A DNA stretch of 32,511 nt from Candidatus Omnitrophota bacterium (GTDB lineage: Bacteria; Omnitrophota; Gorgyraeia; Zapsychrales; Zapsychraceae). The notes under the pieces are model-generated. The model worked only from the letters and a program-made list of their open reading frames with translations, had not been told where the DNA came from and searched no databases. Location: NCBI GenBank assembly GCA_029568545.1, contig JAKQAH010000084.1, positions 1 to 32,511 on the forward strand. The letters are read 5' to 3'. Each line of letters starts with the position of its first letter. The stretch's first letter is position 1. This document shows, piece after piece, positions 11,886 through 32,511 of the stretch. The position numbers and the translations under genes were made by a program.

Positions 11886-11905
11886 AGCATAACGGGCATC
11901 ATCAT

Positions 11906-13840: not shown

Positions 13841-13881
13841 GAAGGACTCGTAAAAAAGGGAAACGATAGGAGAAGGCGGGC

Positions 13882-15006: not shown

Positions 15007-15057
15007 GCCGATGACCATCGCCATCCAAAAATCACTTTTACCTTTGAGGTCAGCATC

Positions 15058-18000
15058 GTGAAGAACAAACGTATTCTCATTCTTTTGGGCTTTGTCTTTT
15101 TTTCTTTTGCCCTGATATTATCCCCGCGGCCCGGATCTGCCGAGGGTGAGGTTATTATCCCGGGTATTGTCGAGGTTGAAGAAAATCATCTCTACATGGT
15201 TCCGATCGGGACGGATGACGGCGTCAAGAAAGGCGATACCGTCGAGATCATCCGCAACGATCAGAAAATCGCCGATGCGCGGCTGATCTCCGTGCTGTCG
15301 GACAATTCGATGGCGGAGATCGTCGTGATGTTCATCCGCACGGATATCCTCGAATCTGATTCCGTCAAATTTACCGAGAAAAAGGACGAAGTAGCGCGGG
15401 CCGCAAGGCGCAAAACGCTGACGACAAGCGAGCGGACGGTCGTGGAAGAGGCCCCCGCCAGGGCGGTCACGGAGGTCAAAGCGTCGGAGGACAAACGCCG
15501 CGGCCTTCTGGGCAGCGAAATGCACCGCTATGAGGAGGTTGCCGCGGTGGAAGGCCCGCTTAAGCAGGAGATCGAACAGTTGAAAGCGGGGCTGGTCACG
15601 GTCCGGGACGAATATGAAGGGAAGATCGATACGATCCTCAGCTCTGTTCAAGGGTCCTCCAAGGATGCGTTGGCCGTCGAGAAAAAGTGGCAGGATAAAT
15701 TGATTTCGACCGAAAAGAGATATCAGGCGCAGTACAATGAGCGCAAAAAACTTTTGGAACGGGAATCGGCCAGGCTGGAGGCGAAAGTCGCGCAATTGAC
15801 GAATGAATTGAAGGTTGTCAACGAAGGAACGGACAAGCGCATCGAGCAGCTGCTGTCCGACCTTAAAGAGAAAGAGGCGGAGATCTCTTCCATAAAGAAA
15901 CAGTTTGTCGAGGAGCATTTAGCCGGCGAAAAACAATGGCAAGCAAAACTGGAGAATCTCGAGGCGCAGTATCAGGGCCAATTACGGACGCTGGAAGAAT
16001 CATTGAAGAAGGAATCGGCGACGAGCCAAGAGCAATCGCAAAAAGACATCAGCAGTTTGGCGGGCGAATTGGCCTCGGTAAGGGAGCAGGCCCGCAGCGC
16101 AACCGATAATTTTCAAATACGGCTCAAAGAGCGGGAAGATCTCATTGATGCCTTGCGCCAAGACCAGATCGCGCTGGAATCTGACCTGAGCCGGGAACGC
16201 GAGCGGGCCAATAAGCTGGAAGGGGATATTGTCACCTTAAAAGATGTGATCGCCGCAGCCAAAAGGGTTCATGAGAAAGAGCTTGCGTTTGCGCAAAAAC
16301 CGCTCGAGAAAAAAATCGAGGATATGAGCGTCGATTTTATTGCTACGAAACATCAATATGAAAACGAACTCAACGCCCTTCGCCAAGGCGCGCAAGAAGA
16401 CCTGCTCAAGAACGAATCCCAATGGGTCGAAAAACTTGCGTCCGTGGAACAGAATTATCAAACACAACTCAATGATTTGAATGTCAAAACTGCCGCGCAG
16501 GTGAACCAATTGCGGGCCGAGTTGGAAGGCCAAAACAACGTCATCGATTTGCTCAAACAAAATAACGCGGAGCTTGCGGCTAAGCTTCAGGCCAGCGAAC
16601 AGGCCTTTGCGCTGGCCCACAACGATATCAAAACCCTGGAAAAGCAGATAACAATTGACCGGGCGACCCGGACTGAAAAAATCAATCTGGCCAAACAGCC
16701 TCTTGAGGCGAAAGTTGCGGAACTCAGCGCCCAGATCGTGGTTCTCCAGAAACAACATGAAGCCAAGACCGGCGAGGACGCTTCGGTGATCGAGTTTCTT
16801 AACGGAAGCATGGCGGAGTTGACCAGTGACTTGGAAGCCCGGGAAAAGCAGCTGGGCGAGCTTCAAGAGCGTTTTTCAATTTCACAGAATGAGCTCGAGG
16901 CTTTGAAAAAATCTTATACGGATGGGATTGCGCTTGCCAAAAAACCTTTAGAAGATCAGATGGAAGATCTTTATGCTCAAAGTGTTGCTCTTAAAGCGGA
17001 CTATGAAAACCAGATCAAGACGCTCCAAGAAAATGCCAGTCGGGATCTTTTGGCGTCGGAAGAGAAATGGCAGATGCAGTGGGCGGCCAAAGAAGCGGAA
17101 ATGGACACAGCCAAACAATCTCTGGCAGATCAGGTTCTTGCGCTGCAGGCGTCGATGGATTCATTGAATAAAGAGCATGATGCCAAGGTGCAGGAAATGG
17201 CAGCTATCGCGGAAAAAGATCAAGCTTCGGTTAATGAGCAATGGCAAGCGAAATTGGCTCAGTTGCAGGACGATCATCAGAAAGAGCTTGCGTTGAAACT
17301 TCGGGAGAGGCAAGGTGTTATCGATGGATTGGAGAGTGAGAAGCTCGAATTAGCAAGACAGATTCCGGCGTTGCAGGAAGAGTACGAGAAAAAGATGAAA
17401 GCGGTTGAAGACGAATTTGCGCAAAATCAGAGCGTCAGTGATCAAAAGTGGCAGGAGAGGTTAGCTCAAATCCAGAATGATTATCAAGGGGAGCTTGGAA
17501 CGAAGTTGCAGGAGAAGCAAGTTGCTATTGACCGGTTGGAGAGTGAGAAGCTCGAATTAGCAAAACAGATTCCGGCGTTGCAGGAAGACTATGAAAAGAA
17601 GATAAAGCTTCTTATCGAAGAATCCGGCAGGGATCGGGCGGTTAGTGATCAGCAATGGCAAGCGAATTTGGCTCAGTTGCAGGACGATCATCAGAAAGAG
17701 CTTGAGACGAGACTGCAAGAGAGGCAGACTATTATTGACCAGCTGGAGGATGAAAAGTTTGAGTTGGCAAAACAAATCCCGGTTTTGCAGGAAGAATATG
17801 AGAAGAAAATGAAGGTCATTGCGGATGAATTTGCCCAGAATAAAACTTCCAATGATCAGCAATGGCAGGCGAAACTGGATGAAAAAGATACGGCGATTGC
17901 TTTATTGGAGAATGAGCGCCTTGGCCTGACAGAGCAGTTAAGCGCTCTGAAGAAAGACAGCAGCAGCGTGATCGAAGAATTGCAGGTCCAATCCTCGAGA

Positions 18001-20799
18001 AAGCAAGAGGAAATTGATGCCTTGACGACGGCCAAATCCGATCTGGCCTCTCAATTGGCCCAGACGGGCAGCCTTTTGGCCAAAGCGCAGAACGATATCG
18101 CTGTTCTCAAGAGCCAGATCAGCGAGACGGAAGCGGCCCGCGCGACGTGGATCACTTCTGTCAAAAAACCGCTGGAAGATGAAGTCAAGAAATTGAATGA
18201 CGAGATCGTCCAGCTCAACGAGGCTCATAAAAACGAGATTCAAGCGATCGAACAAAACGCCGCGGCGAATGCGGAAAGTTTGGATAAGAAATGGCAGGAA
18301 AAATTGGCTGAGAAAGATGGCGAGATCGCCGAGCTTACGAAAGCATCCGAGATCGCGTCGCAATCGAGGATCGCGGAAAATGACCAGGTCTGGGCCGATA
18401 AAATGGCGAAGGCCGAACAGGCGTATCAGGAACAGTTGAAGAAACAAGAAGAGGGGCTGCAGGCAAAGATCGCCGATCTTAGCCAAGCTCTTGAGGTTTT
18501 GCGCAAAGACAGCGGGAGCGTGATTGTTCAATTGCAGACCGACCTCAAGGCCAAGCAAACCGCTATTGACGCGCTGGAAAACACGAAATCCGGATTTGAG
18601 ACGGCTATCACCCAGAAAGAGGAGGAGCTGTCGGGATTGCGCGACGAAATAGCTCAATTGAAGAAAGATCTCAAAGCCAGCGATTCTTTGAAGGACAATG
18701 CGGCTAAATCTTCGGCGGAAATCGCCCGTTTAAAAGACCAAATGCAGGAATTGAAAGGGGCCAATGCCCGCGAGGAAGAGGCCCTGAAGAAAGATTTAGA
18801 GATCGAACGGCAGACTGTCGCTGATCTCGAGAAAAAGCTTGCCGAGCAGGAATCGTCGAGCATTCAACGCGCGCAGCTGGCCAAAGAATCTTTGGAGGCC
18901 GAGATCAAGACGCTGAAAGCGGAACTGGCTTTCACGAAAAGCCAGCATGAACAAAAAACGACTGCCTTGCTGGAAAGAGCGAGTGAAAATCAAACGGTTT
19001 CGGAAAAGGAAGGGCAGGCGAAATTAGCGGCTAAAGAGGCCGAATGGCAGGCGAGATGGGCGGCGCGCCAAGCCGAGCATCAGGAAGAGCTCAATGCCGA
19101 GCTGGCGGCCTTGGAACAAAAATTATTCGGCGGGAAAAAAGAAGTGCGGCAAACGGTTGTCGATCTCAATAACCGTTTGAGCATGCTCAAGAACAGCAGT
19201 GACAGCCAGATCAGGGAACTGGAAGCGGAATTGGCGGCCCAGCAATATCAACTATCGATCAAGGAAAGCGAAGCTCAAGAGCGGCTGATCGAGGCTGAGA
19301 AAAAATGGAAAGACAATGCGGCGTTATTGGAGAAAGCCTATCAGGAGAAACTTGAGCAGGAAAAACGCGCGCTCAACGAGAATTTCCTCGCCGAGAAGAA
19401 AGAATTGCGCGAAACCGTCGTGGACCTCACCCGGCAGTTCAGCGAATTGCGCGACGGCAGCAACAGCCGCATCAAAGCTCTTGAAACCGAAATTGAGAAA
19501 AGGGATTATAAGATCAGCTTGCTTGAGAATAGCTCCGAGCAGAATATTGTCGGGACGGAAGAAAAATGGCAGGCCAAGCTTACCGCGCTAGAGGAGAAAC
19601 GCCAAAGGGAATTGCTGGAGCAGAAACGGGATATGCAAAACCAGTCTCTCGTGATGCAGGAAAAGTTGCAGGCAACAGTCGCCGATCTTACGAAACAGCT
19701 TGATGCGATGCGGGACCAATCCAGGCTGGACCTTGCGATGAAAGACGAGGAGCGGGCGGCGGAGGTCGCGCTTCTGGAACGCAAATATCAGGACCAGCTC
19801 TCGACGGCTAAAACGGGAACAAGCAATGAGGTGGCGCAACTTTCCGCGAAAGTCCAATGGCAGCAGGATTTGATCGATTCCCTGAAAACGGAGAAAAGCG
19901 GGTTGACGCTTGATCTCGAGGAGAGGGAGCGCGAACTGGCAAGGTATCGGGCTTCGATCGAAGATTTAAAGAAAGAATCGAAGATGGCGGAATTGACCCA
20001 GTCGGAGAGGGTGAGGCTATCCAAGCAGTCGCTGGAGTCCCAAATCCAGGACCTGACCGCCCAGCTGAGCATCGCAAATAAGAAAGCCGAACAGGATCGG
20101 GCCGCATTGGAGGACCTCTGGAAGAATAAGCTGGCAAGGGCGGAGGAAGAGTATCTGCAAAAACTGAAGCTTCAGCGCCAGAGCATGGAGCAGGAGAAGG
20201 CGGATTTGAATAATAGGGTCGGATCCTTGGCCAGCACTCGCGATGAAGAGATCAACGAAATCCGGGCGGAGCTGGAAGACAATCAAACCCTTATCCGGCT
20301 GCTGAGCAAGGAAAAATACGATCTCGCCGATAAACTGGAAGCCAAAAGCCGGGAGATCGTCCGGCTCAACGAGGAGATCATTGACCTCAAAGAGGGGCTG
20401 GAAACATACAAGGACCTGGCCTCGTCCGGAACCGCCGGCGGATATGATATAAAAAGCGATGGGAATATCGCGTCCGAAGAAAAATCACGGTACGGAAATA
20501 ATACGATAGCCACGACGGAAGATTATTACACAGTTGTCCGCAAGGCGATCTTAGACAAATTCAAAGAATCCGATTTCTCGAAATATGAAGGCCGCGAGGA
20601 TGTCGTGAAGATCGATTTTGAGCTTTTCGCCAACGGTTCGCCTAAGAAAGGCCCGGAGTTTTTCGGAACGGAGGATGAAGGGCTCAAGGACCTATTAACC
20701 CAGTGCTTTGAAGACGCGTTGCCTTTTCCGCCGTTCCCGGAGAATTTAGGAAAAGAATCTCAGCGGTTTTCCCTGGGGATTTCTTTTAGGAAGAAATAA
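15058..20799 (+). CDS. giant (1913 aa) exported coiled-coil protein with TonB/TolA-C-like C-terminal domain
   Basis: Signal-like N-terminus NKRILILLGFVFFSFALILSPRPGSA; small beta domain (GIVEVEENHLYMVPIGTDDGVKKGDTVEIIRNDQ); about 1700 aa of heptad-like coiled coil; C-terminal globular VVKIDFELFANGSPKKGPEFFGTEDEGLKDLLTQCFEDALPFPPFPENLGKESQRFSLGISFRKK. Confidence 0.85.
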   Translation: MKNKRILILLGFVFFSFALILSPRPGSAEGEVIIPGIVEVEENHLYMVPIGTDDGVKKGDTVEIIRNDQKIADARLISVLSDNSMAEIVVMFIRTDILESDSVKFTEKKDEVARAARRKTLTTSERTVVEEAPARAVTEVKASEDKRRGLLGSEMHRYEEVAAVEGPLKQEIEQLKAGLVTVRDEYEGKIDTILSSVQGSSKDALAVEKKWQDKLISTEKRYQAQYNERKKLLERESARLEAKVAQLTNELKVVNEGTDKRIEQLLSDLKEKEAEISSIKKQFVEEHLAGEKQWQAKLENLEAQYQGQLRTLEESLKKESATSQEQSQKDISSLAGELASVREQARSATDNFQIRLKEREDLIDALRQDQIALESDLSRERERANKLEGDIVTLKDVIAAAKRVHEKELAFAQKPLEKKIEDMSVDFIATKHQYENELNALRQGAQEDLLKNESQWVEKLASVEQNYQTQLNDLNVKTAAQVNQLRAELEGQNNVIDLLKQNNAELAAKLQASEQAFALAHNDIKTLEKQITIDRATRTEKINLAKQPLEAKVAELSAQIVVLQKQHEAKTGEDASVIEFLNGSMAELTSDLEAREKQLGELQERFSISQNELEALKKSYTDGIALAKKPLEDQMEDLYAQSVALKADYENQIKTLQENASRDLLASEEKWQMQWAAKEAEMDTAKQSLADQVLALQASMDSLNKEHDAKVQEMAAIAEKDQASVNEQWQAKLAQLQDDHQKELALKLRERQGVIDGLESEKLELARQIPALQEEYEKKMKAVEDEFAQNQSVSDQKWQERLAQIQNDYQGELGTKLQEKQVAIDRLESEKLELAKQIPALQEDYEKKIKLLIEESGRDRAVSDQQWQANLAQLQDDHQKELETRLQERQTIIDQLEDEKFELAKQIPVLQEEYEKKMKVIADEFAQNKTSNDQQWQAKLDEKDTAIALLENERLGLTEQLSALKKDSSSVIEELQVQSSRKQEEIDALTTAKSDLASQLAQTGSLLAKAQNDIAVLKSQISETEAARATWITSVKKPLEDEVKKLNDEIVQLNEAHKNEIQAIEQNAAANAESLDKKWQEKLAEKDGEIAELTKASEIASQSRIAENDQVWADKMAKAEQAYQEQLKKQEEGLQAKIADLSQALEVLRKDSGSVIVQLQTDLKAKQTAIDALENTKSGFETAITQKEEELSGLRDEIAQLKKDLKASDSLKDNAAKSSAEIARLKDQMQELKGANAREEEALKKDLEIERQTVADLEKKLAEQESSSIQRAQLAKESLEAEIKTLKAELAFTKSQHEQKTTALLERASENQTVSEKEGQAKLAAKEAEWQARWAARQAEHQEELNAELAALEQKLFGGKKEVRQTVVDLNNRLSMLKNSSDSQIRELEAELAAQQYQLSIKESEAQERLIEAEKKWKDNAALLEKAYQEKLEQEKRALNENFLAEKKELRETVVDLTRQFSELRDGSNSRIKALETEIEKRDYKISLLENSSEQNIVGTEEKWQAKLTALEEKRQRELLEQKRDMQNQSLVMQEKLQATVADLTKQLDAMRDQSRLDLAMKDEERAAEVALLERKYQDQLSTAKTGTSNEVAQLSAKVQWQQDLIDSLKTEKSGLTLDLEERERELARYRASIEDLKKESKMAELTQSERVRLSKQSLESQIQDLTAQLSIANKKAEQDRAALEDLWKNKLARAEEEYLQKLKLQRQSMEQEKADLNNRVGSLASTRDEEINEIRAELEDNQTLIRLLSKEKYDLADKLEAKSREIVRLNEEIIDLKEGLETYKDLASSGTAGGYDIKSDGNIASEEKSRYGNNTIATTEDYYTVVRKAILDKFKESDFSKYEGREDVVKIDFELFANGSPKKGPEFFGTEDEGLKDLLTQCFEDALPFPPFPENLGKESQRFSLGISFRKK
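17230..17880 (+). repeat. in-gene tandem repeat, period 207 bp (69 aa), three full copies plus a partial fourth
   Basis: The Trp codon of the conserved (E/D)Q(K/Q)WQ motif recurs at 17242, 17449, 17656 and 17863, always 207 bp apart. CAATGGCAAGCGAA[A/T]TTGGCTCAGTTGCAGGACGATCATCAGAAAGAGCTTG is shared by units 1 and 3; TTGGAGAGTGAGAAGCTCGAATTAGCAA[G/A]ACAGATTCCGGCGTTGCAGGAAGA is shared by units 1 and 2. Confidence 0.9.
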
Positions 20800-20871: not shown

Positions 20872-21495
20872 ATGAAAAAAAACGGGATATCAATGAAATT
20901 TTTAACACTGATAGGATTGTTTATTGGGGCTTTTTTCATGCTCTCGGGGTTCGCGGCCGCTCAAGAGGAGGAGGCTGAAAAGGTCCCTTTGGAATTGGAC
21001 GGTTCCAAATGGGCGATTGTGCAGACATTGGTTGAAAAAAGCGGAAAAACGAGTACCGTTGAAGATACGCTGAATTTTGAAAATAAGAAATTCTACTCGG
21101 AAGTATTCCGTGATAAAGAATATGAGCCGACGAACTATTCGGTGTCTTTGAATGACGATGGGACGACAAAGTTCGGTACCATGCAAAACAAAGACGAAGA
21201 AACGGTTTATTGGGAAGGGCGGGTCAAAGGCGAGACGATTGACGGAACGATCAATGTTTACTCAAAGAAAGCAAAAGGGATTAGAGAAGAGTATTATTTT
21301 AACGGCACTCGTTTAAGCGGGGAATTGAAGCCTAAGGTCATGCCAAAACCCACGGCAGATGGCCCTGTTCAGGTGGCGCCGTCGTTAATGTCTAAAACTC
21401 CTGGTGTTCAGGAGGAGGCGGTTCAACCCATTATTGAAGATGCCCAAGAGCCGGCTGCTCAGACGGAAGATCTTCAATTAATTGGCAATGAATAA
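20872..21495 (+). CDS. exported small protein with W...D.L.F...Y...T.Q...TV.W.G.V.G beta domain
   Basis: RBS AAGGAG; hydrophobic leader MKFLTLIGLFIGAFFMLSGFAAAQ; beta-rich domain alignable by eye with the C-terminal domain of the 21975-23246 product. Confidence 0.8.
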   Translation: MKKNGISMKFLTLIGLFIGAFFMLSGFAAAQEEEAEKVPLELDGSKWAIVQTLVEKSGKTSTVEDTLNFENKKFYSEVFRDKEYEPTNYSVSLNDDGTTKFGTMQNKDEETVYWEGRVKGETIDGTINVYSKKAKGIREEYYFNGTRLSGELKPKVMPKPTADGPVQVAPSLMSKTPGVQEEAVQPIIEDAQEPAAQTEDLQLIGNE

Positions 21496-21586: not shown

Positions 21587-21615
21587 TTGACAATAGCTGA
21601 TTTATCAGGTAACCT
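21587..21615 (+). promoter_or_regulatory. candidate sigma70-type promoter driving the riboswitch leader
   Basis: TTGACA (21587-21592), 17-bp spacer, TAACCT (21610-21615), just upstream of the aptamer-like region. Confidence 0.55.
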
Positions 21616-21634: not shown

Positions 21635-21720
21635 GACTCGAAAAGGCAAACTCAGAGCGATCTGAGGGCGCAAAGCTGTGCATCCTTTTCCCGTAAGGAA
21701 CGGCAAGCTACCGAAATCGT
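21635..21720 (+). ncRNA. GEMM / cyclic-di-GMP-I-like riboswitch aptamer
   Basis: GGCAAA-CTCAGA-GCGA-TCTGAG-GGCGCAAAGC: conserved GGCAAAC, a 6-bp stem capped by a GNRA tetraloop (GCGA), then G-GCGCAAAGC, a second hairpin (TCCTT...AAGGA), and CAAGCTACCG at the 3' side. Matches the GEMM layout; the 3' half diverges from the consensus I know. A terminator follows immediately. Confidence 0.72.
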
Positions 21721-21731
21721 AAAAAACACAG

Positions 21732-21758
21732 ATCCAGGCAAACTGCCTGGATTTTTTT
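21732..21758 (+). terminator. rho-independent terminator (probable riboswitch expression platform)
   Basis: ATCCAGGCA-AAC-TGCCTGGAT perfect 9-bp stem followed by a run of T. Confidence 0.85.
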
Positions 21759-21773
21759 ATGTTCATTAACAAG

Positions 21774-21784
21774 GTGCCAGGCAC
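21774..21784. repeat. GTGCCAGGCAC palindrome, copy 1
   Basis: Perfect 11-nt odd-centred palindrome, identical to 21846-21856. Confidence 0.75.
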
Positions 21785-21794
21785 AAGGGTTCAA

Positions 21795-21830
21795 GTTGGG
21801 AAAAAATGAGATTTTCCCAACGGTTTTTTT
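21795..21830 (+). terminator. second terminator-like hairpin between the two GTGCCAGGCAC copies
   Basis: GTTGGGAAAA-AATGAGA-TTTTCCCAAC perfect 10-bp inverted repeat followed by GGTTTTTTT. Confidence 0.65.
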
Positions 21831-21845
21831 AGGTTTTTGGCGAAA

Positions 21846-21856
21846 GTGCCAGGCAC
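21846..21856. repeat. GTGCCAGGCAC palindrome, copy 2
   Basis: Identical to 21774-21784, 72 bp downstream. Confidence 0.75.
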
Positions 21857-21882
21857 TCCGTTGAAAATAGCTCAAATCCTTC

Positions 21883-21947
21883 GTCATTCTGAGCGAAGCG
21901 AAGAATCTCAATAGGCCAGATCCTTCGCCCTTCGGGCTCAGGATGAC
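21883..21947. repeat. 65-bp near-palindromic REP-like element
   Basis: GTCATTCTGAGC (21883-21894) pairs with GCTCAGGATGAC (21936-21947); nested CGAAG and CGAAGAATCT pair with AGATCCTTCG and CTTCG. Resembles the GTCATTCTGAGCGAAGCGAAGAATCT-type repeat that I recall as dispersed in many bacterial genomes. Confidence 0.75.
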
Positions 21948-21974
21948 AATGGAGAGCAAAAAAGGCGGGTTAAA

Positions 21975-23246
21975 GTGCCACGGGAGCCAAGAATATATTT
22001 AGAAAACGCCTTATACCTCGTTACCGCGAAGGGTGATGAGGAGCGCGATTTGTTCTATGACGCGGAGGATTTCAACGCGTATTTCAAGGCGTTAAGCGAA
22101 TACAAGCGAGAATATGGCTTCAAGCTGTTTGCGTTTTCGCTTCTTCCGAAAAGCCTGTATCTGTTGATCGAGTTGAGGAACAACGTGACCATCTCTCAAA
22201 TCATGCATGATTTGAACTCCGGGTACACCAAAGCCTACAACGGCCGTTATGGGAAAAAAGGCCATCTCTTCCAAAGCCGTTTCAAATCCGTCATTGTCCA
22301 GAAAGAAAATTATCTTCTGCGCCTGACCAGATACATCCATCTTCTTCCCAAAGATTCCGAGCATCCTGATCCTTCCAAATATCCTTACAGTAGCTGTTCC
22401 CTATATATATCGGACGGGCAAGGGCATCCGAGGAATCCCGAGATGCCGGAGATGAATTTCGAAATCAACGAGGTCTTAAGCCAGTTCGCCGATATGGAAA
22501 CGGAAACGAATCGACGCCGGGCCTATGAAAATTACGTGCATGCGGCTGAGGATCAAGAAGTCGCCGCGGTAGCAAAACTTCTTCACCGCAAGGCCTTTGT
22601 CGGGTCGAACGAGTTCATCGAAAAGGTTGAGGATGAGGTCAAGCAGCATGTGATCGAAGAAGAGCAGACACGGATCGTTCGCAAGACTAATCCTGTTTTT
22701 GCGGTGGCCGGCGCATTGATCATTTTGTTCTTGGGATTTGTCGCCTACAATTTTTATAACAATCAGTCAGAGCTCCAGCAGACGCTGAATAAGACGGCCA
22801 GCGGTTTTGAAACCGCCCGGGAGGATCTTGCCCGGCGGGTGACAACTTTGCAGAGTCAAGTATACGGATTCGAACAAAAAGAAAATTACGGGCTCGGCGG
22901 TTTTGCCTGGGAACTTCAATTCATGCCGGTGGCGCAAGGGGCGCCAGGCGAAACCTTCACGGACCGCCTGCAATTCAAGGGCGGGAAGATTATTTCTTCG
23001 GGGCTTGTGGCGCGCGGTTTTTCGCCGTTTGATTACACGATCACTCAGGAATCGCATGGAAAAATGATCTGGAAAACGAGCCAGACGAACGCCGAGGGCA
23101 CGACCGTGCGCTGGTACGGCGTCGTCACAGGCGATCAGATGCGGGGAGTTTTGAGTGAAATCCCGGTTCAAGGTCAGAACCGGGATTTTGCTTTTGTGAG
23201 TTTAGGGCGGGTCAAAGAGGCTGGGAGGACCGACAATGCAATATAA
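21975..23246 (+). CDS. RAYT/Y1-transposase-like domain fused to a TM helix, short coiled coil and C-terminal beta domain; HUH histidines replaced
   Basis: N-terminus MPREPRIYLENALYLVTAKGDEERDLFYDAEDFNAYFKALSEYKREYGFKLFAFSLLPKSLYLLIEL...GKKGHLFQSRFKSVIVQKENYLLRLTRYIHLLPKDSEHPDPSKYPYSS follows the REP-associated tyrosine transposase pattern. TM NPVFAVAGALIILFLGFVAYNFY. C-terminal domain alignable with the 20872 product. GTG start. Confidence 0.88.
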   Translation: MPREPRIYLENALYLVTAKGDEERDLFYDAEDFNAYFKALSEYKREYGFKLFAFSLLPKSLYLLIELRNNVTISQIMHDLNSGYTKAYNGRYGKKGHLFQSRFKSVIVQKENYLLRLTRYIHLLPKDSEHPDPSKYPYSSCSLYISDGQGHPRNPEMPEMNFEINEVLSQFADMETETNRRRAYENYVHAAEDQEVAAVAKLLHRKAFVGSNEFIEKVEDEVKQHVIEEEQTRIVRKTNPVFAVAGALIILFLGFVAYNFYNNQSELQQTLNKTASGFETAREDLARRVTTLQSQVYGFEQKENYGLGGFAWELQFMPVAQGAPGETFTDRLQFKGGKIISSGLVARGFSPFDYTITQESHGKMIWKTSQTNAEGTTVRWYGVVTGDQMRGVLSEIPVQGQNRDFAFVSLGRVKEAGRTDNAI

Positions 23247-23670
23247 AAGAACTTTTCAAAAATCTTTCTTGATGGTTTTGATGAGCTTATGCTTTTGTTC
23301 TCTTCTCTATATGGGGGTGTCCGAAGCGGCGCAAGGCGCAAAGGGCGGAGCAGGCGATGAAGTCAAAGAAAGCAAAACGATCAGCGGCAAGGTCGGGTTT
23401 ATTAACAATGAATTTATTTCGATCATTGACCAGAGCGACGAAGGCCAGGGGATCGAGCATGAGATCCTGATGTACCGGGATAAGGACCTTGAGGTCAAGA
23501 ATAAGGCGAGCCTTAATGAGATCAAGCCGGGAGATGTCATCCAGATCGAATATGAAAAATCCACCAAGACTTCGAAAGATGTGCGCAAGAGCAAGCAGAC
23601 TGTCAAGTCGGTCAAATTTTTAAGGGCGGCAGAGGAGAAGGATTCAACGCTGAGATCGGGAAAGAAGTGA
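23236..23670 (+). CDS. small exported protein of unknown function
   Basis: Hydrophobic leader SFLMVLMSLCFCSLLYMGVSEA, then ISGKVGFINNEFISIIDQ...LNEIKPGDVIQIEYEKS. Start overlaps the upstream gene by 11 nt. Confidence 0.75.
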   Translation: MQYKRTFQKSFLMVLMSLCFCSLLYMGVSEAAQGAKGGAGDEVKESKTISGKVGFINNEFISIIDQSDEGQGIEHEILMYRDKDLEVKNKASLNEIKPGDVIQIEYEKSTKTSKDVRKSKQTVKSVKFLRAAEEKDSTLRSGKK

Positions 23671-23677
23671 ACCTAAA

Positions 23678-26600
23678 ATGAAACCGCATGTCTACATAGG
23701 CGATTATGTCCAAGGGAATAAAGGCCCTCTTGCTTCGAGGATCTGCTTCAAGGCCATTATTCATCTTCTGGTCATTTCGATGGTCGTTCTCGGCGTTCCT
23801 TTCCCGAGGATCCCGACCTATCTTCCGCCTGTGGTTCGTGAGCCGTTAGAACTTGCCCGCGAAACAGTTGAAACCAAAGAGGCCGAGGCCGTGCAGGCTA
23901 ACTTGGTTCAGGACGTTGGCTATGTAGATATCCTGGCAGGAGCTTATTTTGCCTCTATTGATAGTACCAGTAACGGAGATTTTGACACGGCCGTTAATAC
24001 GTCTAAATCGCTTATATTTACAACGTGGAAGTGCGACCAAGCTAACACTTATGTGAGAGGCGGAACCAACGAGTCCGGAGGCGAGGGGCCCGCGATATGG
24101 ACGTCCTATTTTGGGGATACGCAGAGCGTTGTTCTTCAGCGCAATATGTTGGAGCCGAGTACTACAGGCGGTACCAGTACGGCTGGCGCTTATGTTGTCG
24201 AATTTGGCTCCGGGGCGAGTACGGAGATGAAGAAATTTTCCGGAAGTACTGTTGTCCTTCCAACTATCTATATTAAAGAAGTTGGCCTTCCTGAACCTAT
24301 AGCGGCGAATAAAAGCTTTGTTATAATTGACAGGGCCATTGAGTTGGCCCAAGCTGCGGAAACAGAGGCCACGACTCCTCTTGCCACCCTTTATCGAAAA
24401 GATACCACTAATACCCCTGTCGGTTATGTTGACACATTGAAATTGGAGCGTTACCAGCTCCCAACGGGATATGCTGCTCTTAAGATCACCCACGATCCTC
24501 CTGCGATGACCGTGGGCTATCAGGTTGTCGAGCTCGACGGCCGGGTTAAGGTTCAGAGCGGTACGGCACAGATTGCGGCCGGCAGTACCTCGACAACGAC
24601 ACTAACACCTTCTTTAACTTCTGTGGATACTAATAAGTCCTTTTTGATTCATAATTTTGCCGGCGGATCAGGCACGGACGGTGTTGAGGGTATGATCTAT
24701 GTGCGCGGGACGATCACAAATGCGACGACTCTCACCTTTACCCGGGCCGCGAGCGGTTCGACAAACGATCATGTGAATATTTCCTGGTTTGTGATCGAGT
24801 TCACTGATGGGAGCAGGGTGCAGAAGGGCTCCACAACGATTGCTAGTGGCAGTTTGACGCCGGCAAGCCAACCGACCATAAGTACAGTTGACCTTGAAAG
24901 AGCATTTCCTGTTATTTCTGTTTCAGGCGGAGACGGTTCAGATAGCACAGATCTTAGCAATGTCTCCGTTCTAGCAAAGATAGCGAATGCCACCACTCTT
25001 AATTTGAGCCGTAAAACGACAACCGTGGCTTCGATTGTGGACTGGTTTGTCGTGGAGATGTCCCCGTTAACACTCAAGGTTCCCGATGGCGGCCAAACGT
25101 GGTATGTCGGCGATACGTATCAAATCACTTGGGAGCATGCGAACTCAACGCTGGTGCCCGACGATACTGTTTCCTTGCAGATCTCTACGAATGGAGGGTC
25201 GAGTTATATTGGAACAGCTCTGACCTGCGCGGAAGGGGCGCGCACGGCTGATGACGATATTTGTACCTGGCGTATCCCAGAAAAGGTCGGCGGCACGGAC
25301 ATCATGGGCACGAACATCAAGATCAAGATTACCGATACCACGCTGGGCAACGGTTATGACTTTGATGCGTCCAATACTCCTTTTGAGATTAGAGGAAAGA
25401 TTGATGTCACTTCGCCCGACGGCGATGAGGTATGGTACATCAAAGATACGTACCGCGAGATCACCTGGAATTTTAACGGCGATTTTGACACGGTGAATGT
25501 CCAGAGGGCAATTGACGGAGATCAAGAAACTCCGACGTGGGTGAATCTTGCCACAGGAGTGGCTATTGATAATAATTACTCTGGCAGTCACGACACATAT
25601 GGCGGCCAGGGTTCATGGGCCTGGAACCCGATTCCCGACCTTCCTTATGCGACGATGAAGGTCAGAATACAATCCACGACCAGCGCGAGCTGGACGCAAG
25701 TTGCCAACGCGTCGGATGATGTTTTTGAGATCAGGCCTAACATCACCGTGACCCAGCCGGCCTCCGGGGATCAATGGCTGGTCGGGCGCACTGAGACCGT
25801 TGAGTGGACATCATCGGGAACGGTTACCAGCGTCAATCTTTATTACAACCCGGCCGGTACCGGTTATGTGGTGCCTCCGGGGGTTACCAATCCCGTGACA
25901 GGATTTGTCGCGGCGGATTATCCGACTTACAAGCGGTCGGATGGAACGGCCTGCCCGGCGGACACTTTTTGTTATAACTGGCTTCTTGATCCCACGACGG
26001 TGTTGGCGGCCAGCGCGAAAGTAAAAGTCGAGAAGCCCGACAGCACGTCGGTCGCGGATGAGAGCGATGACTTTACGCTGATGCCGGCCTTGAGTCTCGA
26101 CAATCCGGCCACGACAACGACTCTTCGTGTTTATGATAATATTCTTGCGACGCAGGTTCCGATCGACTGGAGCCATCCGTCCAGCCCGGCGATGAGCAAT
26201 GTCGGTATCAAATATACAAAAAGTTACCTTGTCGGCGCTACGCCCTGTAAAGACCAAATAACCTCGCATTCCTGTTGGGAAGACATTTCCGTCAACCCGG
26301 GAGAAAATCCCGGTCTGACCGGTGGCACCTACTATTGGCAGGTTCCCCCGACGGCGATTGGAACGGACATCGGCATTAGGATTTATGAATTGGGCAAAGC
26401 TGACCTGGTCTTTGACCAAGACGGGCAATACACCGTCAAAGGAAGCATTACGATCGGCGCTCCGACGGGAGCCAACGTAGGCAAATTAGGGTCGATCCGT
26501 GTGGGTGACACCTTCCTGATCCAATGGACGCCGTACGGGGATTTCGGGCGGGTTTATATCGGGCTTTCGAAAGACAACGGGAGCAGCTATACCGTTCCGA

Positions 26601-29600
26601 TCGTTCATGAAAACTTATATACGGATTCCGGATGCAGTACATCATTCGTCCTGGATGAGAGTGCTCTTTCCTATAATTGGGGTAGGACGGACCTTTATGA
26701 AGATGATGGGTTAGGGGGGGCGTGCAATCCGACAACGCGGATCCCTGTCAGCGCTATTTGCGGCAATGAAGATGAATGCATGGTCAAGGTTTATAAATGG
26801 GATGAACCCAGCCCCGAAACCGGTACCGCAGGAGAATCGCAATCGTTCAATTTGACCGGAAACATTTCAGGCGCTACCCGAAATTCCAATGTTTATCTGA
26901 TCAATAATACGGCAACGATTACCTGGAGTGTCGCGCCGACCGGATGGACGCAACCGGTCAATCTCAAATGGTGTAAAAGCACGAGTTGCACCAGTCAAGC
27001 CCAATGGGACGCGCGCCCGGTTATTCCTTCAGGGCAATTAACACCTGCAACACCGATCGCGGGTGACGGTGCGACGGGTGTTCAATGGAGGATTCCTGAT
27101 GAAGCCGGCATTGTCCAGCCGGATATTGTTGTGCGGGTCGAACAAGCCACAAACCCGGCCGTTACCTATTCCGATACGAGTTCCATGCAAATCAAAGGAA
27201 GTGTCCAGCTTGCGGCAGGCACCCCTGCGAAAACCGGCGGGGTTATCTGGCGGATCGGAGAAGAGAAAGCTATTTCGTGGAACAAGAGCGGCGACATTGG
27301 GAATATTGTTCTTAAGTATTCGTTGGACGATGGTGTTGATAACTACGCCCGCACGATCGCGACGGTTGACGACGATGCTTCTCCTTACACCTGGTGCGTC
27401 GGCTATCCGGATGGATGTGTGGGGGAACCTACTTCCGGAGCGCATCATCCGGATCAAGTTATTAATACGGTTGACCGCAACGTCGATATCAAGATCATGA
27501 TCGTTTCGGCCAGTGATAGCGATATTAAAGATTGTACAGGAACAGCTTGCGCGGGTGATTCAACGTCTTTGACGATCCAAAAAAGATTTGCCGGCGTGTC
27601 TGTCGGCGCAACGACCTTGATCGTTGATGATACCAGCTCCAATGCGGACATTACCTGGGATACCTACGGATACCTGGCGGTTCCTCCGAACGTGAACCTG
27701 TTCTTTGACTATGATGACGAGCCGTTAACCTATCCCAATCAGATCAACGGGAACATTATCGATGTGGGGGCTTACACCAGCTGGCAGGTCCCGAACTATA
27801 TCAGCGAGACGGTGCGCATCCGCGTGGCCTCGGCGGCCGCTCCGACGACCGTGTACGGGGATATGACCGATGATTTTATTATCAAAGGAGATCTGGATGT
27901 TACATCTCCTGTCGGCACCGATGTTCTGGTTGTCGGACATCCCGCGAACTACAATTCCGCCGGGATCACGTATGTCAAGCACGGGTCGATCGGGAATTTG
28001 AGGATCGAAGATGTCCGTTCGGGCTGCGCTACGCCTTTATTGTTAACGCCGGGGCCTACTCCGGGGCCGGAAGGGACTGATCAAGCGACATCATTCACGT
28101 GGACTGTTCCCGCGACCGACGGTTGTGGCGCCAGCATTATCGACATCGGCGCGGCCAAAACCCATCAGTTGAGACTGACCGGCCTAACCCATGAGTTAAA
28201 CAATAATTTAAAAGTTATTAAGCTCACATCATCGTTCCAGATCCGCGGCGAGATCTACGATATTGAGCCGGGATTGACTTCTGAAGAAGTTTATCTGATC
28301 GGCGAGACGGCTTATATCAAATGGAAATCATACGGCAATATCGGGAACGTCAAGATCCGCGCGGACAAAAATAACAACAATACGTTTGATATTGTTGTGA
28401 CAGGGCCAGACCCGACTTATCCTAACGGCGAATCTGTTCCCTATAATTATAACGGCGGCGACGGGGCCGGAAGCTGGCTCTGGAATGTTCCGAATGATCC
28501 GTCCACGGCGTATCGTATCCGTGTCGAGAGCATTGATAATCCAGTCGGCGGTCTGGGTGGCGCCGCAATGGCGACGTATGACGATTCTCTGCAAACCTTC
28601 ACGGTCCGGGGTTCGATATCACTGACGGTTCCTAACACGGCTGTGATCTACAAAGTGAACGATACGATCAATATTAACTGGAGCACGACCGGCAATGTCG
28701 GTGACGTGGCTATTACCCTTTATTATGATAGCACTAACTCCGGAGACCCCTTGGATCTGGAATCTTACAGCAATACCGTTATTGTCACATCCGACAACAA
28801 CAGCGTTAAACCGTTTCCTTTCCAATTGCCTGTTGCATCCGTTTCTGATACGGCTGTCATCGGATTGGTCTCCTTGATCGACCCGGCTGTTAAGGACAAT
28901 TCCGCAGCCAATTTCAAGATCAAGCCGGTTTTAACTCTGACATCGCCGAACAATAATCTGGCTAACGTAGTGGTCGGCAGCAGTTACAGGATCGTTTGGC
29001 CTTTGCCGGTTGGTACTGCCTCGTCATTCAAGGTCAATGTATCGACAGACGGAGGAACGACATGGACCGATACGTCGCCGCCGACGCTTGTCGCTAAAGG
29101 CGGACTTGTTGCCGCTTCCGTCGCTGCTGGCAACCTTGGTGTTGACTGGAGCGTGCAAGATATCATGACCAACCAGGGCGTTATTCGCATCTGCAAGGAA
29201 GGGGATCCGGATGCCTGCGATAATTCCGATTCTTTCTTCTATGTAAAAGGTTCTATCACGAATGTGCATGTTAAGACTCTGGTGACCGATCCGGCCCCAG
29301 GTTCTCCGATCGACCTGCCGATTGCGACAGAAAAATATGTTACGTGGGATTATACCGGAACTTTGGGCAGCGTTAATGTCTATTATTCCACAGATGCCAA
29401 TCAAGGCTCGCCGACTTGGGTTCCGACAACTGGACAGTGTATGAATGTTTCTATTGATCCTGATGCGACCGGAAGTACGGGATACTGTCAATGGGACATC
29501 CCCGATGCGCCGTCGCCGTACGTGCGGGTCAGGGTCCAAAGTGTCACCAATGCCAACTGGCAGACCGTCGAAGGATTGTCACCGGCCTATAATGCGATTA

Positions 29601-32511
29601 TCGGAAGCATTTTGAATGTTTTGGTCGTTGATCAGGGAGCCCCGAATTATGACAATCTTGTTATGGGTGACTCTAAGACGATTCAATGGACGCCCAACGG
29701 GGCTATCACCGGTTACAAAATTGAGTATCGTATTAACAATGGTTCATGGGTTGATATCACCATTGATGATGTGAACGGAGACACGGGAACAGTCGCTTGC
29801 GGCGGAGCCTGCCGGCAGTGGACCTGGAATCCGATTCCGAGCACGATTGCACCTTCCAATGATATTGATTTCCAGGTTTCAGATTGGGACAATCCTACAA
29901 AGGTCAATAATCTTAACAATCAAACGGCAGGATTAGAATACACAATCAAAGGGCAGTTAAGTCTCGTCGCTCCCGACTCAGCGCTGGTTTATTCGATCAA
30001 TGATACAATCCCCATTACTTGGAACCAGACCGGAGCCATCGGCAATAAGAATATTACCTATACGGCGGTGGATGATTTCAGCGATGCCTTGCCGGCGATC
30101 AGCGCCAGTTATATTGCGAATGGGGATGGTCAGCATAGCTTGAGCCCGGTTTGGAACGCTCCGTATTCTGTTTCGGAAGAATACAGAGTGAAGATCCGGA
30201 ACAATACCGCCATCTCGGAAACGCAGCTGGAAGATATTTCCCAGACGACCTTTGCGGTGCGCCCGACATTTGAATCTCTGGTGTCTCCTGTCGGCGGCAG
30301 CACGGTCTGGAACGTCGGCAATACGGCCCTGATCCGGTGGACCGCGAAAAGCGCTATTGATGCAACGACATCCGCTTACCCCAAAGTCAAGATCGAATAT
30401 GACGTTGACGGCGGCGGATATCAGTTGCTTGAAGCGGGATCCGGCAATCTTGACGGGCAGAACTTGAGCAACGATTATGTTTGGTCATCCGTGCCTGATG
30501 TGAAAAGCGGCAATGTCATGATCAAGCTTACCTATACCAATCCGGCCTACGGCGGAACGATCACGATTGATACAGGATCGCCGATAGCGATCTATCCGGT
30601 GATCACTGTGGGGGACGTGACGCAAGATTCTCAATACACGGAACCGGTAACGGGGATCGTGGGGTTAAAGGCCGGGAGTACCTATAACAATATTGTGAAG
30701 TGGAGTTACACCGGGACAAAAATCAATACAGTTTCGCTACTCTATGATGCGAATGAAGACGGGACATATGAAGGTGTTATTGCGAACTCCGTGGCGGTAC
30801 CGATCGCGGTGGCGCAGGGAGCAACGGGGGTGACCTGGACATTGCCGAACACGATCGCTTTCACGGAAGCGGCGAAGATCAAAGTTGTTGACTCTCAAAA
30901 TGCAAATGTTTTCGGTGAATCGACGGTCGTATTCAAGACGCGCGGCGGCCTGACATTGAGCGCACCTATTGGAGGTCAGACATGGGTGGCGAACACGACA
31001 CAAAATATTACTTGGTCATATAACGGCAGCAGCATGGGAAACGTGAATTTATATTATGACTCAGACAGTGGTGATGGATACCAGTGGGGTGTGCCGATTG
31101 CGACTGTTGCGGCATCGGCGACGAGTTATCCTTGGTACGTGCCACAGGCAGTTACGAACACGGGAGCGATTAGGATCGCGGAACAAGCCGATGCGGATAT
31201 TTATAATATTGGGACCGATTTTAAGATCACGGCGACATTTAATATAACGGCGCCGGAGAACGGAGCACCGGTAAACCTGGCGGACGGCCAATACACGATC
31301 GCATGGAATACGCTCAAAGGCAGCGGCGTGACGGCGGTCAACTTGTATTACACAAACAATGGTGACGCGGGCACGCCGACGTGGATCCCGATCACGGGAT
31401 GTACGAACACATCGAACGATGGGCAATGCGCGTGGACGCTGCCGACAACGTATGCGGACATCAACAACTCGGTGCACAAGGTTAAGATTACGCAGGCGAT
31501 TCCGGCTAATGAAGGGAATGACACATTAAATACGGAGAAGATCGGGGCGGGATATTTTGAGATTGTCGGTGATCTTAACTTTACAACACCAGCGGCCAAT
31601 GATTCGTGGGATGTAAACACGACGGAAGATATTGTATTCACGAAGACAGGGGATATCCATTCGGCTAATATCCAGTATTCGGCGACCGGGGCGGCTCCTT
31701 GGACGACGATTAACGGAGCAGCAATCGACACGACAGCGGCAGGGCCGTTTACTTATCAATGGTATTTGAACCCTGCATCAACGGCATTAACCAGCGGTTA
31801 TGCGGGCAAGTTGCGCCTGGTGGCCGTGGATCCTTCGCCGCCGGTGGTGGCCAAGATTCTCTCTCCGAGTTTGGAAGTTAAGGGTTCGATCAGCTTAAGC
31901 GCGCCGAGTGCCAGCGATATTATCATGACGCGCGGCGGGGCGTCGTATCCGATCAGCTGGACGGTCTACGGGGCTATCACCAATGTGGATTTGCATTATT
32001 CCACAGATGGCGGCACAACATTTCCGCATGTGATCGAGTTGGGGCGGACCGCAAGCAGTGTGCCCTTGAACTGGACGGTGCCGGATGCCTTAGGCAATAA
32101 CCTAAAAGTGCGTGTGCGGGATAGCAACAACAATAACGTCGAGGCTGTTAGCGCGAATACTTTTGAGATTGAAGGGCAGATTACGCTGAACGTGCCGAAC
32201 AATCCCGGATTATCGTATGTGGTTGGTTCGACGATGAATGTTGACTGGAACCCGGAAGGGACCTATCCGACGGTCCAGATCCATTATGACCTGGACGGGG
32301 ATTTTGGAACGACCGGCGACACGTATCCGATCCTGCCGTTAAGCAGCGTGACCAACTGTGCGGAAGCGGTCAGCAATTGCACGGCTGTGTGGAACATTCC
32401 CGACTCCATCGGGACGACGGTGAAGATCCGGGTCAGGAATGCCGGGGATTACGATGTTGAGGATATTAGCGAAAATAATATCAGGATCAAGGGGCGGATC
32501 TTATCGATCAC
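23678..32511 (+). CDS. giant multi-repeat surface/secreted protein, 3' truncated by window edge (at least 2944 codons)
   Basis: ATG at 23678, with no stop seen where I read codons in the 5' part, at spot checks (around 26462, 28622, 30602) and at the window end, all in one frame. N-terminal hydrophobic segment AIIHLLVISMVVLGVPFP, four N-terminal repeats, then about 22 Ig-like repeats of the form 'P..G..W.VG.T..ITW...G....V.I.YS.D.G..W......W.VP......VRIRV......F.I+G.I.L..P'. The supplied ORF track omits it, presumably because no stop occurs before the edge. Confidence 0.93.
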   Translation, partial: MKPHVYIGDYVQGNKGPLASRICFKAIIHLLVISMVVLGVPFPRIPTYLPPVVREPLELARETVETKEAEAVQANLVQDVGYVDILAGAYFASIDSTSNGDFDTAVNTSKSLIFTTWKCDQANTYVRGGTNESGGEGPAIWTSYFGDTQSVVLQRNMLEPSTTGGTSTAGAYVVEFGSGASTEMKKFSGSTVVLPTIYIKEVGLPEPIAANKSFVIIDRAIELAQAAETEATTPLATLYRKDTTNTPVGYVDTLKLERYQLPTGYAALKITHDPPAMTVGYQVVELDGRVKVQSGTAQIAAGSTSTTTLTPSLTSVDTNKSFLIHNFAGGSGTDGVEGMIYVRGTITNATTLTFTRAASGSTNDHVNISWFVIEFTDGSRVQKGSTTIASGSLTPASQPTISTVDLERAFPVISVSGGDGSDSTDLSNVSVLAKIANATTLNLSRKTTTVASIVDWFVVEMSPLTLKVPDGGQTWYVGDTYQITWEHANSTLVPDDTVSLQISTNGGSSYIGTALTCAEGARTADDDICTWRIPEKVGGTDIMGTNIKIKITDTTLGNGYDFDASNTPFEIRGKIDVTSPDGDEVWYIKDTYREITWNFNGDFDTVNVQRAIDGDQETPTWVNLATGVAIDNNYSGSHDTYGGQGSWAWNPIPDLPYATMKVRIQSTTSASWTQVANASDDVFEIRPNITVTQPASGDQWLVGRTETVEWTSSGTVTSVNLYYNPAGTGYVVPPGVTNPVTGFVAADYPTYKRSDGTACPADTFCYNWLLDPTTVLAASAKVKVEKPDSTSVADESDDFTLMPALSLDNPATTTTLRVYDNILATQVPIDWSHPSSPAMSNVGIKYTKSYLVGATPCKDQITSHSCWEDISVNPGENPGLTGGTYYWQVPPTAIGTDIGIRIYELGKADLVFDQDGQYTVKGSITIGAPTGANVGKLGSIRVGDTFLIQWTPYGDFGRVYIGLSKDNGSSYTVPIVHENLYTDSGCSTSFVLDESALSYNWGRTDLYEDDGLGGACNPTTRIPVSAICGNEDECMVKVYKWDEPSPETGTAGESQSFNLTGNISGATRNSNVYLINNTATITWSVAPTGWTQPVNLKWCKSTSCTSQAQWDARPVIPSGQLTPATPIAGDGATGVQWRIPDEAGIVQPDIVVRVEQATNPAVTYSDTSSMQIKGSVQLAAGTPAKTGGVIWRIGEEKAISWNKSGDIGNIVLKYSLDDGVDNYARTIATVDDDASPYTWCVGYPDGCVGEPTSGAHHPDQVINTVDRNVDIKIMIVSASDSDIKDCTGTACAGDSTSLTIQKRFAGVSVGATTLIVDDTSSNADITWDTYGYLAVPPNVNLFFDYDDEPLTYPNQINGNIIDVGAYTSWQVPNYISETVRIRVASAAAPTTVYGDMTDDFIIKGDLDVTSPVGTDVLVVGHPANYNSAGITYVKHGSIGNLRIEDVRSGCATPLLLTPGPTPGPEGTDQATSFTWTVPATDGCGASIIDIGAAKTHQLRLTGLTHELNNNLKVIKLTSSFQIRGEIYDIEPGLTSEEVYLIGETAYIKWKSYGNIGNVKIRADKNNNNTFDIVVTGPDPTYPNGESVPYNYNGGDGAGSWLWNVPNDPSTAYRIRVESIDNPVGGLGGAAMATYDDSLQTFTVRGSISLTVPNTAVIYKVNDTININWSTTGNVGDVAITLYYDSTNSGDPLDLESYSNTVIVTSDNNSVKPFPFQLPVASVSDTAVIGLVSLIDPAVKDNSAANFKIKPVLTLTSPNNNLANVVVGSSYRIVWPLPVGTASSFKVNVSTDGGTTWTDTSPPTLVAKGGLVAASVAAGNLGVDWSVQDIMTNQGVIRICKEGDPDACDNSDSFFYVKGSITNVHVKTLVTDPAPGSPIDLPIATEKYVTWDYTGTLGSVNVYYSTDANQGSPTWVPTTGQCMNVSIDPDATGSTGYCQWDIPDAPSPYVRVRVQSVTNANWQTVEGLSPAYNAIIGSILNVLVVDQGAPNYDNLVMGDSKTIQWTPNGAITGYKIEYRINNGSWVDITIDDVNGDTGTVACGGACRQWTWNPIPSTIAPSNDIDFQVSDWDNPTKVNNLNNQTAGLEYTIKGQLSLVAPDSALVYSINDTIPITWNQTGAIGNKNITYTAVDDFSDALPAISASYIANGDGQHSLSPVWNAPYSVSEEYRVKIRNNTAISETQLEDISQTTFAVRPTFESLVSPVGGSTVWNVGNTALIRWTAKSAIDATTSAYPKVKIEYDVDGGGYQLLEAGSGNLDGQNLSNDYVWSSVPDVKSGNVMIKLTYTNPAYGGTITIDTGSPIAIYPVITVGDVTQDSQYTEPVTGIVGLKAGSTYNNIVKWSYTGTKINTVSLLYDANEDGTYEGVIANSVAVPIAVAQGATGVTWTLPNTIAFTEAAKIKVVDSQNANVFGESTVVFKTRGGLTLSAPIGGQTWVANTTQNITWSYNGSSMGNVNLYYDSDSGDGYQWGVPIATVAASATSYPWYVPQAVTNTGAIRIAEQADADIYNIGTDFKITATFNITAPENGAPVNLADGQYTIAWNTLKGSGVTAVNLYYTNNGDAGTPTWIPITGCTNTSNDGQCAWTLPTTYADINNSVHKVKITQAIPANEGNDTLNTEKIGAGYFEIVGDLNFTTPAANDSWDVNTTEDIVFTKTGDIHSANIQYSATGAAPWTTINGAAIDTTAAGPFTYQWYLNPASTALTSGYAGKLRLVAVDPSPPVVAKILSPSLEVKGSISLSAPSASDIIMTRGGASYPISWTVYGAITNVDLHYSTDGGTTFPHVIELGRTASSVPLNWTVPDALGNNLKVRVRDSNNNNVEAVSANTFEIEGQITLNVPNNPGLSYVVGSTMNVDWNPEGTYPTVQIHYDLDGDFGTTGDTYPILPLSSVTNCAEAVSNCTAVWNIPDSIGTTVKIRVRNAGDYDVEDISENNIRIKGRILSI
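23922..25063 (+). repeat. four N-terminal repeats (about 85-108 aa) in the giant protein, each ending in a (V/W).VVE(F/L/M).. motif
   Basis: Copies end YVVEFGSG (about 24220), YQVVELDG (about 24541), WFVIEFTDG (about 24810), WFVVEMSP (about 25063). Internal 'V(D/A).(N/E)(K/R)(S/A)F' and 'NATTLTFTR/NATTLNLSR' motifs are shared by the last copies. Confidence 0.65.
25064..32511 (+). repeat. about 22 tandem Ig-like (Kre9/KNH-like, Ser-Thr-rich surface protein type) domain repeats of about 95-140 aa
   Basis: Recurring domain starts, e.g. LKVPDGGQTWYVGDTYQITW, IDVTSPDGDEVWYIKDTYREITW, ITVTQPASGDQWLVGRTETVEW, LTLSAPIGGQTWVANTTQNITW, ITLNVPNNPGLSYVVGSTMNVDW; domain ends F.I(+)G. Confidence 0.8.

Follow-up and report, generated by a model that had tools for sequence, protein, structure and literature searches.

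A membrane-anchored RAYT-like protein and REP-like sites in a c-di-GMP riboswitch operon for giant secreted proteins of Omnitrophota

Genetic context of the anchored RAYT gene

The window examined here, i.e. the whole 32,511 nt stretch of Candidatus Omnitrophota contig JAKQAH010000084.1 that was analysed, includes a gene for a transmembrane (TM)-anchored protein related to the REP-associated tyrosine transposases (RAYTs). This gene was found to be the first in an operon preceded by a c-di-GMP riboswitch, and the following genes and leader features were identified:

20872–21495 (+): secreted beta-domain protein, a distant homologue of the C-terminal domain of the RAYT fusion (profile comparison)
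21587–21615 (+): probable promoter of the sigma-70 type, TTGACA-17-TAACCT, immediately before the riboswitch (consensus match only)
21635–21715 (+): c-di-GMP-I riboswitch aptamer, RF01051 (55 bits, cut-off 35; same place in relatives)
21732–21758 (+): intrinsic riboswitch terminator, ATCCAGGCA-AAC-TGCCTGGAT and a T run (from the sequence; similar hairpins in relatives)
21774–21784 (+): REP-like site 1, GTGCCAGGCAC (conserved in relatives; exact genome copy)
21795–21830 (+): second terminator-like hairpin with a T run, between both REP-like sites (from the sequence)
21846–21856 (+): REP-like site 2, AAA-GTGCCAGGCAC (conserved in relatives; exact genome copy)
21875–21955 (no strand): palindromic insertion CATTCTGAGCGAAGCGAAGAATCTC...CCTTCGGGCTCAGGATGACA, outside the module (absent from the leaders of congeneric genomes G001 and G004)
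21975–23246 (+): TM-anchored RAYT gene, 423 aa, GTG start (homology and relatives)
23236–23670 (+): small secreted protein of 144 aa, the ORF of which overlaps the RAYT stop codon (conserved position)
23678–32509 (+): giant repeat protein, secreted, of at least 2944 aa; truncated by the contig end (ORF and relatives)

A preliminary description of this DNA had placed and read the 21975–23246 frame correctly; the c-di-GMP-I riboswitch and the giant-protein operon were missing from it. It had also listed REP-like elements at 21774–21947, of which the GTGCCAGGCAC pair is kept in relatives, whereas the palindromic stretch at ~21875–21955, located between REP-like site 2 and the RAYT gene, is not.

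Further upstream (10360–20799), the window encodes an ExeA-like AAA ATPase, a small T2SS-like protein, a secretin, a coiled-coil TPR protein and a 1913-aa coiled-coil protein. This gene set recurs in relatives, and may serve to export or anchor the giant protein.

Domains and topology of the protein

The domains of the 423-aa protein were assigned as follows:

21975–22619 (+): RAYT (Y1_Tnp) domain, residues 1–215 (Pfam, NCBIfam and weak structure matches)
22152–22160 (+): degenerate HUH motif, with Ser60 (22152) and Tyr62 (22158) replacing both His (alignments)
22332–22334 (+): Tyr120, in RYIHLLP versus RYIxLNP (at the position of the catalytic Tyr in alignments with Y1 transposases)
22692–22760 (+): single TM helix, approximately residues 240–262 (hydropathy 2.36 at residue 240)
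22761–22874 (+): short coiled coil after the TM helix (predicted helix, low-confidence region of the model)
22887–23213 (+): eight-stranded beta domain, most likely extracytoplasmic (separate model, profile homology and fold comparison)

The RAYT-like character of the N-terminus, proposed earlier from its sequence pattern, was borne out by matches of residues 31–122 to Pfam Y1_Tnp (PF01797; E=1.7e-8, 35.1 bits, cut-off 23) and of residues 5–139 to NCBIfam REP_Tyr_transpos (E=5.7e-15, 55.5 bits, below the equivalog cut-off of 80). A PDB sequence search with a 5-sequence profile found no match. The full-length AlphaFold model, for which the input was the window protein and one relative only, is poor (pLDDT 47), but for the N-terminus this weak model still retrieves IS200/IS605 transposases and 4er8, a RAYT-REP structure. 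In the window genome, which is 78% complete, this gene is the only Y1_Tnp.

Both HUH histidines are replaced, as had been noted, and a scan of the whole 423 aa found no HxH elsewhere. Tyr120, by alignment the probable catalytic residue, is kept, whereas many relatives have lost this tyrosine.

The TM helix, the coiled coil and the beta-rich C-terminal domain of the preliminary description were all recovered, the last as ~110 residues that form an eight-stranded domain with a pLDDT of 84 if modelled alone. Fold matches of this domain are weak (lipocalin-type and other small barrels, best E=0.009), and the name lipocalin-like was for this reason dropped. The domain is homologous to small secreted proteins, encoded both by neighbouring genes and in relatives (profile-profile comparison, probability 99.2%, E=1e-19), a relationship that required profile-profile comparison, as BLASTP of the beta domain against that of the 20872–21495 protein gave no match. 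As these homologous neighbours start with signal-peptide-like sequences, the beta domain most likely lies outside the cytoplasm, in agreement with the placement first suggested. The positive-inside signal is weak, with a mean K+R of 3.8 before the TM helix and 2.8 after it.

Distribution and evolution in Omnitrophota

The full-length fusion, for which a search of related genomes had been suggested, was found at 59% and 56% identity in two genomes of the same genus, in more distant genomes at 36–37% identity and in ~50 further genomes, and this conservation rules out the frameshift or assembly artefact that had been considered. A profile of five fusions was run over 384 sampled genomes, all of them MAGs of Omnitrophota, and the loci were then read, giving 55 TM-anchored RAYT genes, each with the TM helix at a similar position. 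Two architectures were seen, RAYT-TM-beta and a short type, RAYT-TM-coiled coil, with a conserved KYRADMVSY motif.

RAYTs are common in Omnitrophota, and a tree was made from 104 RAYT domains, 50 soluble and 54 anchored (those of the 55 that could be placed). All 54 anchored domains, and no soluble ones, fall into a single clade (SH support 0.933), the sister group of which consists of soluble RAYTs. The H-H-Y residues are complete in 21/54 anchored and 46/50 soluble RAYTs, and hence incomplete in 33/54 versus 4/50 (P=9e-9, an optimistic value, as the genes and windows are phylogenetically non-independent). Between seven (Fitch) and 12 (irreversible loss) independent catalytic losses are reconstructed in the anchored clade. 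Residues kept where catalytic positions are lost are structural and basic ones (Gly96, Tyr84, Lys86, Arg102, Phe103 and Arg3/Arg6, i.e. G96, Y84, K86, R102, F103, R3/R6), and some deviating proteins, e.g. those of genomes G307 and G120, have few active-site residues left. A Group II intron domain (RF00029) was seen near an ordinary RAYT gene (L019:803–870).

As 21/54 anchored relatives retain H-H-Y, anchoring preceded HUH loss. Loss of the HUH motif is hence not the defining step, and anchoring arose once, ahead of the loss of catalysis. The check for purifying selection suggested in the preliminary description was positive, as the RAYT part of close, catalytically incomplete pairs has a dN/dS of ~0.06–0.12, indicating strong purifying selection (e.g. 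dS 1.29 with dN 0.081, and dS 0.86 with dN 0.10). Together, the one-time anchoring, repeated catalytic loss and purifying selection indicate that a function other than cutting is under selection.

Riboswitch and operon partners

The order of the module is conserved, with the riboswitch followed by REP-like sites, the TM-RAYT gene, usually a small secreted protein (~140 aa in relatives) and the giant secreted protein. Using Rfam cut-offs, a c-di-GMP-I or c-di-GMP-I-GGC riboswitch was found directly upstream in 42/55 anchored loci, and in two further loci between the RAYT and giant genes. Near soluble RAYTs it was found in 0/20 loci, for which shorter flanks were read (Fisher P=7e-10, optimistic for the reasons given above). 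The TTGACA ahead of the aptamer also recurs in leaders of relatives. Derivation of the terminator from a REP was considered and rejected, with a CCAGGC/GCCTGG stem common to only 15/53. At one locus (L114:1027–1142, G266), a REP-like site has been inserted into the c-di-GMP-I-GGC aptamer itself, in its variable loop.

A giant secreted ORF is present downstream in 36/37 loci with enough sequence, and the complete ones are 4,111–8,471 aa in length. In G199 (L180), the sole testable locus with no giant ORF within 3.5 kb downstream, two TM-RAYT genes are found in tandem. In G007, the riboswitch and the small and giant genes are present, but an unrelated 317-aa membrane protein replaces the RAYT (L035:4971–6215), and the leader contains no REP-like sites. 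At four loci (L165, L185, L186 and L191, in G239, G322, G359 and G220, respectively), a gene for a ~740–770-aa multi-TM protein, which by eye resembles membrane-fused spermidine synthases, lies between the small and giant genes. Giant proteins of the short type (G104, G226 and G294) share a C-terminal tail, LKAAMExNxKMVDNIAxKPVTQTWFEYK, that is a candidate anchoring or export signal.

REP-like sites

One to three directional sites with the consensus AAAGTGCCAGGCAC are found upstream of anchored genes. The only two exact GTGCCAGGCAC copies in the window genome (78% complete) are both in the leader of this operon, and within genomes G000, G004 and G020 the exact copies are likewise the leader ones only. 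Among 92 relatives, the four genomes with the fusion all have the spaced pair, only at the fusion locus, and no other genome has it. A degenerate core (matching at least 10 of its 11 positions, in the 320 nt ahead of the gene) was found at 51/55 anchored genes, compared with 50/1574 background windows (3%) and 8/50 soluble RAYTs. A search for tandem sites that included ~80 newly drawn genomes returned seven places, four of which are known loci. The three new ones are a further TM-RAYT (G479, 404 aa), a place truncated where the contig ends and an exception, upstream of a fumarase/aspartase-like (lyase-type) gene rather than a TM-RAYT.

The same palindrome is dispersed in other Omnitrophota, with 138 copies in G202, where the reversed control has 0. 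In G202 and G176 it is found on the flanks of soluble RAYTs with an intact HUH motif, and the G176 RAYT belongs to the sister clade. The copy number in G202 and the position next to HUH-intact soluble RAYTs indicate that the leader palindrome is a true REP. At the RAYTs nearest in the first search it had been found in 0/26 loci, and the link emerged from phylum-wide counting.

The sites are oriented, with the AAA foot on the sense strand in 45 cases versus 3, and foot and palindrome together have the tetranucleotide-plus-hairpin geometry described for REPs (PMC8266576). Proof of the stem-loop by covariation was rejected, as a compensatory change is seen in only one pair. Site and protein change together across subtypes: of the classifiable beta-type genes, 41/41 have G as the loop base, compared with C in 8/10 of the short type. 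At most loci the sites lie between the riboswitch terminator and the start codon. In the short type, one site precedes the -35 box by ~10 bp and the other is in the leader, with a distance between them of ~210 bp in five genomes.

Possible role of the anchored RAYT

The favoured explanation, with a probability of roughly 0.55, is that this domesticated RAYT acts as a membrane-tethered, non-cutting nucleic-acid-binding regulator of its own operon. We infer that it probably binds the REP-like sites of the operon, a reading that is strongly, if indirectly, supported, as the leader palindrome is a true REP and accompanies the anchored RAYT across the phylum. The N-terminal RAYT fold would face the cytoplasm and recognise AAAGTGCCAGGCAC-type sites in its own promoter or leader, the TM helix would keep the complex of RAYT and site at the membrane, and the outer beta domain, or the coiled coil of the sister subtype, would read or contact secreted products, the giant or small secreted protein being a natural guess for the ligand. 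Via the riboswitch, c-di-GMP would decide transcription of the RAYT and of the small and giant secreted protein genes, and bound RAYT would add a second, feedback-type control, coupling giant-protein expression to the membrane. We infer both the direction of this control (repression or activation) and sensing by the outer domain as parts of the model. Speaking against it, 21/54 anchored proteins have H-H-Y and some may still cut.

DNA-level and RNA-level binding are nearly balanced, with DNA slightly more likely. DNA is favoured by the site copy upstream of the probable promoter in the short type, and RNA or single strands by the strand orientation and leader position. The strict sense orientation is more in line with recognition of a single strand, of RNA or DNA, than with a symmetrical duplex operator.

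It is possible, but somewhat doubtful, that the anchored RAYT instead binds REP-like hairpins in its own mRNA leader, and keeps this very long transcript at the membrane for translation and export of the giant protein, or controls translation. Known RAYTs bind single-stranded REP hairpins (PMC8266576). Sites between terminator and start codon would be part of every full-length transcript in most loci, the sense-strand bias is as expected for RNA, and the protein encoded downstream, with up to 8,471 aa, is exported. However, the short-type copy upstream of the probable promoter would stay untranscribed, a compensatory change was seen in one stem pair only, and we know of no RAYT that binds RNA.

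Loss of nucleic-acid binding, with the RAYT domain serving as a protein-protein module or structural base and the sites read by something else, appears unlikely. The repeated loss of catalysis and the few active-site residues retained in G307 and G120 would be consistent with it, but the conserved site tracks the protein phylum-wide, its loop base shifts with subtype and conserved basic residues persist. A membrane-anchored nuclease, in which H-H-Y members nick single-stranded REP sites at the operon and the window protein is a dead paralogue, either a competitor or a relic, would account for the 21/54 intact triads, but is very improbable, as dead and intact anchored copies occurred together in no genome examined closely and the window genome (incomplete) has one Y1_Tnp only. 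An ordinary REP/RAYT element, decaying or still mobile, retained by chance upstream of surface-protein genes and accidentally fused, is strongly disfavoured despite the abundance of RAYTs in the phylum and the H-H-Y kept in 21/54, as the anchored proteins form a single clade with a constant operon position in 36/37 loci, dN/dS is well below 1 in dead pairs, and the sites are upstream only, with two copies in the window genome and no genome-wide spread.

If the regulator reading is followed further, it can be proposed, tentatively and at less than even odds, that a transposase fold has become a membrane receptor-like regulator, which ties the giant-protein gene or mRNA to the membrane via dedicated REP sites and so coordinates c-di-GMP signalling, expression and export in one place.

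Relationship to known systems and significance

RAYTs have been called domesticated transposases, and their cellular role is debated. The window protein shares fold and sequence family with RAYT/TnpA_REP (Y1_Tnp, HUH superfamily; E. coli TnpA_REP, PDB 4er8), as well as short palindromic REP sites and core residues of the GHxFQxRFKS and YI-HL-P regions. It differs in that it lacks HUH, carries a TM anchor and an outer domain, and scores below the NCBIfam equivalog cut-off. The foot of the site is AAAG here but GTAG there, and, unlike in a REPtron, the sites are upstream only, neither flanking nor disseminated, with two exact copies in a genome that is 78% complete. No mention of a membrane-anchored RAYT was found among the open-access papers searched.

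Membrane-bound one-component regulators of the ToxR/CadC type have a cytoplasmic nucleic-acid-binding winged helix, one TM helix and an extracytoplasmic domain. The anchored RAYT resembles these in its cytoplasmic domain, single TM helix and outer domain, and in the operator-like sites near its own promoter. However, it has a transposase fold in place of the winged helix, its binding is putative and its leader also has a riboswitch.

In Bacillus thuringiensis, a c-di-GMP-I riboswitch controls the adhesin gene cap (PMC4933901), and the two systems have in common that the 5' leader of the transcript for a surface protein contains a riboswitch for a second messenger. The Omnitrophota module differs in that the riboswitch is separated from the giant gene by REP sites and by the gene for a transposase-derived membrane protein.

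The genes downstream of the TM-RAYT belong to the giant ORFs of Omnitrophota, a class of poorly understood giant secreted proteins (PMC10066038); the words transposase, riboswitch and c-di-GMP are absent from the main text of that paper. Roles in cell-cell adhesion, and possibly predation, have been proposed for these proteins. The module places them under c-di-GMP and would provide a regulatory handle on giant secreted proteins of an uncultured phylum. With the sites, operon and membrane placement fixed by selection and catalysis repeatedly lost, a binding-only function of a RAYT becomes directly testable using one protein and one leader. The recurrence of this arrangement, with its dedicated DNA signal, across Omnitrophota points to a new sort of transposase-derived regulator.
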